From Anaerocolumna cellulosilytica (GTDB lineage: Bacteria > Bacillota > Clostridia > Lachnospirales > Lachnospiraceae), in NCBI RefSeq assembly GCF_014218335.1, contig NZ_AP023367.1, positions 263,001 through 327,000 on the forward strand: a stretch of 64,000 bases of DNA. Direction: 5' to 3'. Made by a program: the position numbers and the translations under genes. This document shows, in pieces, positions 59,951 to 64,000 of the stretch. Under the pieces are notes generated by a model. It was given only the letters and a program-made list of their open reading frames with translations. It was not told where the DNA came from and ran no database searches. Each line of letters begins with the position of its first letter. Position 1 is the stretch's first letter.

Positions 59951-62752
59951 CTAAGGAATCTGCCGGTCAAAATGAAAGCATTGCTCTAACCCCATTCTTC
60001 TAACCGAATCTAACCAATTAAAAATTCGTGTCTGATTATATACAGGCATTCCATTCTCGTCTTTAACCTTTTCAAGAGCCAATGCTATTAAGGCGTATTC
60101 ATTTTCTAATATGGTATCAAAAACGCCTTGATCATCGGTGTTGATGGAAACGAATAATTGTGCCTTATCCATACTTTCACTTCTCGTCTCAAGACCAAGA
60201 TTGTTAAAGTTAAGTATGGGATGCTTGTCAAATCTTTTAAATGTACTAATTAGCACGTTTGATGTTGGATTACATTCAATACCAATACCTCGTTCCCTGA
60301 CTTCACGCTGCATATTTAGTTGTATTGCTTTTAAAGCTTTTATCATGTATATAGGAACTTTAAATACAACTTTTTTGCTTCCTTCCTGCTTAACTCCTGC
60401 ATCATAATGATATCTTAGAGTTAAAGTTGTAATTATATTGTCCCGGCGAATTTTTTTACCTTTTTGAAGGGCACACCGATCCCAATAACTGATGTCTTTA
60501 TTCTGGGAAAAGGACACTTTATCCTTTGCACAAGTAAAATCATAAAGCATCTTAGGATCATCTCCACGAAGATGCCATGCCAGTATATATAAATCAACGG
60601 GCATTACTTCGTTATTAGAGCGATTCCATGCTACGTCTTTCGTTGTCCAATCCGTGCCAGTCATATATATCTGAGAATAGTAATCGTTATATAGTTCTTG
60701 AAGTTTATCAATATATTCTGAACTATTATCAATGGTATATTCTTTTAACTTTTTGATTGTCCATGCAATATTATCGAGTAAATCCTGCTTTGACAGATTG
60801 ACATGATTTCCTTTATTCTTGTACCAGTCTTCTACATCAATTCCAAGGACTATAGCGTGACCTAGCCGGTCACCATGCGTTAGTTCAAGAAAAATGATTG
60901 CTTCTTCCACGGCTCTCAAACCATCTGCAATGTCAAGAAAATCTTCGCCTACATGGTAGGTAGCCCGTAAGGGGGGAAGATGAATTTCTTTGCAAAATTC
61001 CCGTTCAAAATCTCTATTGGGAATATGTCCTTTCAGATAACGAAAGGCTTGTCCAAATACTTCCGGGCGTTCTATTAATTCGTTGGAACATGCATCGATT
61101 CCCAGTACTCTGGAGGATATGTCTCTATTATGTTCCCGCATCTTGGCGATGGCTTTTGCATATTGCTTTAATTCTTTTCTATGTTCATAATGCCTGCAAT
61201 ACATTAGCCCACTTAAAGGATCTTCAGAGTTGATTTTTTTATCAATACATTTGGGAAAATGAAATACATAGAAAAAATGCTCTTTGAGAATGGAGTCAAT
61301 TTTTTGCTTTTCTTCTGCTGTGTTATTAGAAAGATGTTCGTAAAAGTTTCTTTCTGCAATGGAATATCGTTCTCCTAGCAAATGAGATTTGAAATTTCTC
61401 TTGTCAATCCAATAATTGTTTGCGTCATTGCATAGCTCGTTTATTATTTGTGAATCATAAGAATGAATCGTTTTTATATTTTGCTTCACATCCTTATCAG
61501 GACAAATTCTTGCTTCAATAGATACTACATTCTGACGTTTTACAGACATTAAGATTGCCTGAGCTGGTAATAAATCCTTTAAAGTACGGTTTCCGCGTAA
61601 AAATTTCTGCTTTCTATCTTGATAATCTGAAAAGTTAGAAAATCCTACACGATTATTGGCTTGTATCAATTCTTTTCTTAACGTATTTTTAATCACCAAG
61701 TAAGCATAAAACAAATCAGCGTTTTTCATAAAATCTTTATCATTAGTAAAGATTGCTTTAAAACACTTATACATGAAAAAACGTTCTCCTGAAAAGTACT
61801 CGAAGATGCTGTCATTTCTGCGAACTTGGTTTATTAAACAGTAATCGATGCTATCTCTGGAACGACCATCTAACAATGTGTTTAAAACACTTATTTCTGA
61901 CTGAATTTGGTGGTCGTATAGTTTAATAATTTTATTTTCCTTATCATATTCCATGATTGCTTTTATTATATGCTCTGCTTGCAGATTCTGATATATTTTA
62001 TCAAAATCAGAATACTTCTTACATACGTATACTTGATAAAATAATACAACTCTTATAATTTGTGCCAATGTCAGCAGATTACTAATTCTTGTATACTCTC
62101 CGTAGCCCTTGTCTAACCGCTCTAATCTTTCATCTAGCTTAAGTTCTTCCTTACTTTTTACGTTATTCATGATATTAAGCCAAGACAATTTAAAAGTTGG
62201 GGCTGAACCTAGTAAGTGGAAGTGATTATCCGCCATACCCTGAGACAGCATATTATGAATACGTATATTATTACTTTTCGTTACCACGTCCCATGAAAAA
62301 TCTACCCGCTTGCGTCCAGAGAGTACATCACAATAAGCAAAATGGGCAGCAATAAACATATCCTGATCCAGATATAAGGTAGTATCTCTCCATTTTAATA
62401 ATTCTTTGTATTTGCATTTAACATTTTCACCATCATTTTCAAGAAAATCTCCTGCATAATTGGCAATCAGATTGAATACAGAATATGTTTGTCCTGTTTG
62501 ATAAACGGTCTGCTTGGATTCTTCTCTGGTGACAAAAAAGAGATTCTCTATCTCATCTTTTGAAAATACTTTTGCAATCTCTTGATATAAGTCTACAAAG
62601 AGATTGCGGTTTATTTCTTTATCACTGGAATAATTCAACACTTCCATATGCATAGTTTTTTTTCTTACATCTTTTGATAGAAATTGATTAAGAATTCGTG
62701 TAGGATTATATTCACATAAAAGAACCCGTAGTGGGAATTGCATATTGTCCAT
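59951..62752 (-). CDS. rdrB: RADAR adenosine deaminase RdrB
   Basis: 933 residues, about 2.5 times a normal adenosine deaminase (about 350). Every catalytic motif of the family is present in order: zinc ligands His177 and His179 in ADNHFHLLGSAP; His600 and Glu603 in YHVGEDF; His632 in HGDRLGHA; the Glu826-Cys-Asn-Pro-Thr-Ser-Asn segment; and Asp873-Asp874 in NTDDQGVF. The 420 residues between the first and second motifs are an insertion, and there is a 170-residue N-terminal extension, as in RdrB of the RADAR anti-phage system. RdrB deaminates adenosine nucleotides or RNA after activation by RdrA. It is 14 bases behind the partial gene. Confidence 0.85.
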   Translation of the reverse strand: MDNMQFPLRVLLCEYNPTRILNQFLSKDVRKKTMHMEVLNYSSDKEINRNLFVDLYQEIAKVFSKDEIENLFFVTREESKQTVYQTGQTYSVFNLIANYAGDFLENDGENVKCKYKELLKWRDTTLYLDQDMFIAAHFAYCDVLSGRKRVDFSWDVVTKSNNIRIHNMLSQGMADNHFHLLGSAPTFKLSWLNIMNNVKSKEELKLDERLERLDKGYGEYTRISNLLTLAQIIRVVLFYQVYVCKKYSDFDKIYQNLQAEHIIKAIMEYDKENKIIKLYDHQIQSEISVLNTLLDGRSRDSIDYCLINQVRRNDSIFEYFSGERFFMYKCFKAIFTNDKDFMKNADLFYAYLVIKNTLRKELIQANNRVGFSNFSDYQDRKQKFLRGNRTLKDLLPAQAILMSVKRQNVVSIEARICPDKDVKQNIKTIHSYDSQIINELCNDANNYWIDKRNFKSHLLGERYSIAERNFYEHLSNNTAEEKQKIDSILKEHFFYVFHFPKCIDKKINSEDPLSGLMYCRHYEHRKELKQYAKAIAKMREHNRDISSRVLGIDACSNELIERPEVFGQAFRYLKGHIPNRDFEREFCKEIHLPPLRATYHVGEDFLDIADGLRAVEEAIIFLELTHGDRLGHAIVLGIDVEDWYKNKGNHVNLSKQDLLDNIAWTIKKLKEYTIDNSSEYIDKLQELYNDYYSQIYMTGTDWTTKDVAWNRSNNEVMPVDLYILAWHLRGDDPKMLYDFTCAKDKVSFSQNKDISYWDRCALQKGKKIRRDNIITTLTLRYHYDAGVKQEGSKKVVFKVPIYMIKALKAIQLNMQREVRERGIGIECNPTSNVLISTFKRFDKHPILNFNNLGLETRSESMDKAQLFVSINTDDQGVFDTILENEYALIALALEKVKDENGMPVYNQTRIFNWLDSVRRMGLEQCFHFDRQIP

Positions 62753-62766
62753 AATAACCTCCTACT

Positions 62767-64000
62767 TTATTCTGCTAATTGGTTTGTGGCTTCATCAAAC
62801 ATACGAATGATTCTTCTTCCTCGTTCTCCAAAAACCTGCTCTTCTCCAAAATTCATAGCATCTTGATTCATAGTATGGTTTTTGGTTATTGTATCAAAAT
62901 AATCTGATATTTCGTTCTCCAAAATTGTTTTCTGAGTAACATCTGTGACATATTTTAGTAACTCATCAAATTTTTTACTAAGTGTCTTTTTAATGGCAGG
63001 TAAGTTAATTTTCATTCCCTGCTGATAATTTCTGGAGCACCTGCTTGCGGAGGAATTAATGTAGTTATAGGCAAGCTTTCTATCATTCATATACTTTTCT
63101 TTTTTTGCTGTAGGTGGTACTGTCTTTTCAAGTGCAAAAGGAGGAGATGTCACAATATTAGCAAAGTGTTCCTTTTGGACTTGTTCTTTTTCAATATTAT
63201 AATCTAAATTTATCTGAACAAAATTTAAGATATAAGCTGGCAATTCTAAGTGAATACTTGGCCTAAGTACAGTAGGAAACTGAGAATACGCCTCATTAAA
63301 GCTGTCGTTTAATAGTTCTATAGAACTTTTTAATTTGCTTTTATAATCCGTTTTTTCAAAGCGTTTATTTTGAATCCTTTTTCGTAAGATTCTTATAAAT
63401 TCAAAATATACATCCATATTAATAATGGATTCAAACATGCTTGGTAGCTCAAGCAAGGAAGCATCCCCAGATACATCCTTTGTATACTGTTCCTCCAAGT
63501 AAAAATCAGAAAAATAATAGTTGATTATATGAAAAGGACTATATGTGAAGTTAGTAATAGTTTCTTTTTCGATAAGCATAGAAGGCTGTTCACTATTCCA
63601 ACTTGTTAATCGAGCAATTTGGCTTACCCGTTGTTGTAGCAATGAATAAAAACAAGCCAACCCTTCATTAACATGTTGCCATTCCTCAATATATTCTGTT
63701 AAGTGCTGATTTTCATTAGGAGAATTAACTTCTTCTTTCTCTAGTATATCAAGTATATTCTGAATAGCTTCAAATGACGTAGATACTTTGTTGTATTGAT
63801 TCAAGGCACCTGCTCTATGTATATACTTTAATAAGCCCTCTTCTTCAACTACATAATTATAAAAAGAGGGTGGCAAGGTAATTTTATCAATAGTCAGTTC
63901 TGGTAATATAATGTCGGTACCCAAATTTATTTCCTCTTTAAAAGCATTGTAATTTCTAGCATCGTTAAAAATACTTCCCAGCCAGTCGTTTCCTAAGAGG
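62767..64000 (-). CDS. rdrA: Large protein upstream of RdrB, probably C-terminal part of RdrA ATPase (start outside the window)
   Basis: The frame is open from the right edge (base 64000) through 62767: LLGNDWLGSIFNDARN is read before the TTG at 63924, so that TTG is unlikely to be the true start although AAAGAGGA lies upstream. About 410 residues are visible, without an ATPase motif (it would be in the N-terminal part). Content is helical (YSQFPTVLRPSIHLELPAYI; SRNYQQGMKINLPAIKKTL). RdrA is typically about 900 residues and precedes rdrB; the identification rests on the neighbour and length, not on motifs. Confidence 0.6.
   Translation of the reverse strand, partial: LLGNDWLGSIFNDARNYNAFKEEINLGTDIILPELTIDKITLPPSFYNYVVEEEGLLKYIHRAGALNQYNKVSTSFEAIQNILDILEKEEVNSPNENQHLTEYIEEWQHVNEGLACFYSLLQQRVSQIARLTSWNSEQPSMLIEKETITNFTYSPFHIINYYFSDFYLEEQYTKDVSGDASLLELPSMFESIINMDVYFEFIRILRKRIQNKRFEKTDYKSKLKSSIELLNDSFNEAYSQFPTVLRPSIHLELPAYILNFVQINLDYNIEKEQVQKEHFANIVTSPPFALEKTVPPTAKKEKYMNDRKLAYNYINSSASRCSRNYQQGMKINLPAIKKTLSKKFDELLKYVTDVTQKTILENEISDYFDTITKNHTMNQDAMNFGEEQVFGERGRRIIRMFDEATNQLAE

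Follow-up and report, generated by a model that had tools for sequence, protein, structure and literature searches.

RADAR is a rare anti-phage system, found in 270 of ~38,000 genomes (PMC9994260), and its published types consist of rdrAB alone, rdrAB with Csx27 or rdrAB with SLATT (PMC7699616). In E. coli RADAR, RdrA docks on RdrB, and infection leads to conversion of ATP/dATP to ITP/dITP and to abortive infection (PMC9994260). Nearly all contacts with RdrB are made by the crown (RdrA insertion 1), mutation of which weakens or abolishes defence (PMC9994260). The zinc ligands of E. coli RdrB are H152, H154, H498 and H530, and the catalytic residue is E501 (PMC9994260). Overexpression of RdrB alone is toxic (PMC9994260). 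The locus described here, divergent and intact and with an extra gene that weakly resembles the RdrA-RdrB interface, offers a direct handle on how the toxic RADAR deaminase stays silent and is then triggered.

The window is a stretch of 64,000 nucleotides, bases 263001-327000 of the complete single-contig 5.43 Mb genome of Anaerocolumna cellulosilytica. A first-pass annotation of this stretch had placed a RADAR-like locus at its right edge, where the gene preceding the deaminase gene is cut. Bases 320000-339999 of the genome, here termed L003, were read across the edge. The features of the locus are as follows.

59951..62752, minus strand: rdrB, encoding a 933-aa adenosine deaminase, with an ATG start and PADLOC, NCBIfam and PDB profile matches.
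62216..62224, minus strand: HFH motif of RdrB, residues 177-179, with zinc ligands H177/H179 in invariant columns, equivalent to E. coli H152/H154 (PMC9994260).
60944..60955, minus strand: HVGE motif of RdrB, residues 600-603, with zinc ligand H600 and catalytic E603, equivalent to E. coli H498/E501 (PMC9994260).
60854..60874, minus strand: GDRLGHA motif of RdrB, residues 627-633, with H632, equivalent to the E. coli zinc ligand H530 (PMC9994260).
60131..60142, minus strand: NTDD motif of RdrB, residues 871-874, with the adenosine deaminase family aspartates D873/D874 in invariant columns.
62767..64000, minus strand: the part of rdrA within the window, encoding the C-terminal 410 residues; the full gene encodes 930 aa (L003:5768-8560, window-equivalent 62767-65559).
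L003:8575-9060 (window-equivalent 65574-66059), minus strand, outside the window: the third gene, P0001, 161 codons, 14 nt 5' of rdrA.
L003:9112-9084 (window-equivalent 66083-66111), outside the window: a promoter-like site, TTGCCG-17-TATAAT, upstream of P0001.
L003:9193-9179: a terminator-like hairpin after the preceding mutS2-family gene.

The locus most probably represents a complete RADAR system, consisting of rdrA and rdrB with ATP/dATP-deamination defence; by analogy with the solved systems we assign this reading a probability of about 0.93, a figure that does not extend to the role of the third gene. The two core genes lie in tandem on one strand with a 14-nt gap, an order also present in dozens of related loci. 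The first-pass annotation had given the strand and coordinates of the 933-aa deaminase reading frame and the order of its motifs correctly, and had rightly recognized a large preceding gene on the minus strand, 410 residues of which are visible and which is open to the window edge. The predicted P-loop AAA+ ATPase of about 900 residues to the right of the window was found: the cut gene encodes a 930-aa AAA+ protein with intact Walker A and B motifs. Two outcomes had been named in advance as refuting RADAR, an upstream gene lacking an ATPase domain and a deaminase aligning better to housekeeping enzymes over its whole length. As the upstream product has an ATPase domain and the RdrB alignment is nearly full-length, neither applies, and the RADAR assignment is borne out by profile, fold, gene order and catalytic motifs.

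In RdrB, residues H177, H179, H600, E603, H632, D873 and D874 are invariant in an alignment of 12 homologues, and the ECNPTSN motif is located at residues 826-832. The large insertion between the first and second motifs, emphasized in the first-pass annotation, is real, yet such an insertion is usual for RdrB: the H179-to-H600 spacing here corresponds to that between H154 and H498 in E. coli RdrB (PMC9994260). The PADLOC RdrB model matches the product at 5e-29, and the NCBIfam RdrB model NF041744 matches at 1.1e-46, covering residues 25-924. In a PDB profile search, RdrB 8fnv/8fnw is matched at 1.9e-62, compared with 1.6e-6 for the best ordinary deaminase.

RdrA contains an AAA+ P-loop domain with Walker A GDRGTGKTST and Walker B LIIPIDDID. 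Among 30 RdrA proteins, G78, R80, G81, G83, K84 and S86 of Walker A, D235, D236 and D238 of Walker B, and R376 are invariant. The ATPase part matches RdrA models of PADLOC (7e-14) and NCBIfam (1.4e-23), and the 30-member RdrA profile matches E. coli RdrA 8hr7/8fnt at 3.6e-15. The AlphaFold model has a mean pLDDT of 63.6, being good over residues ~70-450 and of low confidence in the C-terminal lobe; all 20 significant (top) Foldseek matches of this model are RdrA chains. VIA-align superimposes it on 8fnw_M with a Z of 22.2 and an rmsd of 2.5 over 233 residues (model residues 29-329, crown included), at an identity to solved RdrA chains of ~11-18%. The crown insertion is present in the model as helices 138-152, 159-180, 183-203 and 206-222, followed by the Walker B strand 228-234.

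Compared with the E. coli P0304799.3 and S. suis SS993 systems (PDB 8fnt-8fnw, 8hr7-8hrc), the locus has the same tandem rdrA-rdrB, an AAA+ RdrA with a crown, and the same RdrB zinc and catalytic residues, with the first motif likewise followed by a long insertion. It differs in sequence (~11-25% identity), in RdrB length (933 aa versus 799 aa) and in the presence of P0001, which is unlike any described RADAR partner. Profile scores are far under the NCBIfam equivalog cut-offs (83 of 600 bits for RdrA and 160 of 800 bits for RdrB), which places the locus in a divergent branch; the rdrA-rdrB core is a divergent, previously undescribed member of the known RADAR kind. The CRISPR-associated ATP deaminase Cad1/CARF-ADA shares the deaminase fold, with a weak PADLOC match (1.5e-07, RdrB residues 814-890), but RdrB here has no CARF match save via the deaminase part, and its partner is RdrA rather than a CRISPR system.

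As in the solved E. coli system, an RdrA heptamer, shaped as an AAA+ funnel, would dock via its helical crown onto an RdrB dodecamer. Upon phage infection, RdrB would deaminate ATP/dATP to ITP/dITP, and these products would poison the nucleotide pool so that phage replication stops. From this literature we infer that assembly, deamination and defence would take place here; all the catalytic parts that this requires are intact.

Coding-like signal in P0001, rdrA and rdrB is confined to their own frames (0.156, 0.144 and 0.134 bits/codon, respectively; other frames are negative), and the three genes have a similar low GC. The three make up an operon-like unit behind the single promoter-like site. 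As a GGAGG stands before the second ATG of P0001, its product is probably 155 aa rather than 161 aa. The unit sits at the junction of the mutS2-family gene and a histidine kinase gene. In 7 congeners these neighbours occur without RADAR and are separated by nothing or by an unrelated ~135-aa gene; thus, among the genomes examined, the three-gene unit is confined to this one, and it was probably acquired as a whole. The junction is, by this comparison, a variable insertion site. No integrase or transposase adjoining the unit is visible. The ~135-aa gene is conserved at this site in three congeners (L193:2380-2784, L194:2610-3020 and L195:2349-2762), and the site is empty in the others examined.

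As in SLATT- and Csx27-associated RADAR, a small extra gene accompanies the RADAR core, but P0001 matches neither model. A third gene beyond the window edge had been anticipated, and this part of the first-pass annotation stands; its suggested identity as a SLATT or Csx27-like partner does not. The P0001-rdrA-rdrB operon, flanked by the mutS2-family and histidine kinase genes, contains no SLATT 2TM protein, whereas the same Pfam/NCBIfam SLATT models do find P0006 at a second RADAR locus of this genome (1e-15 to 2e-19). Csx27 is likewise absent from the operon by PADLOC, the same library finding Csx27 in a related locus, L037. The arrangement P0001-rdrA-rdrB, a single instance, therefore fits no published RADAR type (PMC7699616).

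P0001 has no obvious membrane segment by eye. It has no Pfam, PADLOC or NCBIfam match, and PADLOC and SLATT models gave none even at E values up to 1. The one PHROGs match (E 0.046) is not credible, and an Rfam search of the locus returned nothing. Searches of viral contigs, plasmids and phages and of 397 family, 391 class and 15 genus genomes gave no credible homologue. None of about 90 RADAR loci compared has such a gene standing separately ahead of rdrA, and the nearest relatives (Propionispira, Clostridium hydrogenum and Oceanirhabdus) have no equivalent 5' of rdrA. Kinship with HD-GYP proteins, matched at E 2e-5 to 5e-3 in three genomes at class level, was considered; the match was rejected, since it aligned P0001 strands with HD-GYP helices and had been selected out of 391 genomes, and it serves as a gauge of chance.

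Among all ORFs of the RADAR loci, those most similar to P0001, itself aside, are RdrA proteins, with every match at one and the same place between Walker A and Walker B. The stretch matched is insertion 1, the crown. A profile built from the ATPase domains of 27 nearby RdrA proteins matches P0001 residues 52-151 at 16 bits (c-E 2.4e-7; E 0.0018 over 9,168 ORFs), making P0001 the top-scoring non-RdrA ORF of the 9,168; the next scores 9.7 bits. With this profile, the highest score is 13.0 in 10,000 shuffles and 10.2 in 3,646 natural 161-aa windows taken from other genes, not counting additional RdrA copies in L079 and L110. With a broader 78-member RdrA profile, P0001 scores 8.4 bits, roughly what the best shuffles reach, and hhalign gives a probability of 28%. 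Predicted helices of P0001 and of the RdrA crown occur in matching order; P0001 has no P-loop or Walker A and ends ahead of the Walker B aspartates. AlphaFold of P0001 alone gives a pLDDT of 47, and Foldseek with this model finds nothing with E under 3. Homology of P0001 to the RdrA crown is a hypothesis that we consider somewhat less likely than not, the match being weak with the broader profile (8.4 bits) and in structure.

For the deaminase, an alternative reading is that rdrB is an enlarged housekeeping adenosine/AMP deaminase beside an unrelated ATPase gene. General adenosine deaminase models of Pfam and NCBIfam do match RdrB, but over residues ~812-894 only and at 1e-9 to 1e-11; these ~80 C-terminal residues compare with the span of 25-924 covered by the RdrB model at 1e-46. 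The alternative that the first-pass annotation had left to be checked is further opposed by the identity of the neighbour as RdrA by both profile and fold, by the rdrA-rdrB tandem in dozens of loci, and by sister species that lack the operon at the same site, unlike what is expected of a housekeeping gene. A housekeeping deaminase with an unrelated ATPase was accordingly rejected on the RdrA fold match of the neighbour, and this reading is exceedingly improbable.

P0001 could be a bystander to defence, either an unrelated orphan or a decaying remnant of another accessory or of an rdrA copy; this is a serious contender, with odds a little short of even. The lack of homologues in the genomes, plasmids, phages and viral contigs searched and the high variability of the slot 5' of rdrA across loci are in line with it, but the ORF is intact, has a ribosome-binding site, is spaced 14 nt from rdrA, shows the same in-frame codon bias as rdrA and rdrB, and lies inside the same acquired unit. 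A more specific proposal is that P0001 is a free-standing, ATPase-less mimic of the RdrA crown, occupying the surface of RdrB on which RdrA docks. The 16-bit crown match, exceeding all shuffles and unrelated natural windows, the crown-like helix order with Walker A and the Walker B acids missing, the predominance of the crown in RdrA-RdrB contacts and the toxicity of overexpressed RdrB by itself (PMC9994260) are all consistent with this proposal. Against it, the score is weak and falls to 8.4 bits with the 78-RdrA profile (hhalign 28%), the model is poor (pLDDT 47) and has no structural match, the chance-level HD-GYP match scores about as high, and there are no homologues in which conservation could be assessed. 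In this reading, which we regard as unlikely, P0001 would act as an antitoxin-like brake until infection, as an assembly timer, or as a limiter of the number of docked RdrA rings; if true, it would be a kind of regulator so far undescribed in RADAR. On balance, P0001 is most likely, though tentatively, an accessory of the RADAR operon, possibly acting on RdrA-RdrB docking.

The genome carries a second, SLATT-associated RADAR at ~1.14 Mb (L004:4541-12356, about 1144540-1152355). Its genes encode a SLATT protein (NCBIfam 2.3e-19) located upstream, a 162-aa basic ORF, an RdrA of 1130 aa and an RdrB of 996 aa. The two RdrB proteins of the genome are ~23% identical, that at L004 being of a different clade.

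In 29 of 89 RADAR loci, mostly of Lachnospiraceae and other Clostridia, the gene directly 5' of rdrA encodes a TPR-type protein of 400-540 aa with a conserved N-terminus, IxIIHxxx...FFRxxGIxVxE (L034, L035, L037-L040, L053, L056, L065, L070, L071, L075, L079, L086, L091, L094, L095, L099, L101, L102, L104-L106, L109, L113, L116, L118, L120 and L121). As two members searched have no PADLOC match, this protein is a candidate for an undescribed RADAR partner or sensor. A Csx27-like membrane protein is encoded 5' of the TPR gene at L037:3977-4666 (PADLOC 2.3e-6) and L039:15176-15883.

RdrA is split into adjacent genes, encoding an ATPase of ~320 aa and a C-terminal part of 470-700 aa, in Flavobacterium, Chryseobacterium, Tenacibaculum and a Fusobacteriaceae MAG (L058:7571-10008, L059:7592-10008, L069:7622-10008, L073:7360-9861, L076:7624-10008 and L078:191-3282). 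The position of the split is similar in several genera. We suggest that the TPR gene offers a candidate sensor, and split RdrA a domain boundary, for testing. At L079:1368-10628, a further RdrA-like ORF lies downstream of rdrA and rdrB, close to the end of the contig, so that two RADAR units might be present there in tandem.
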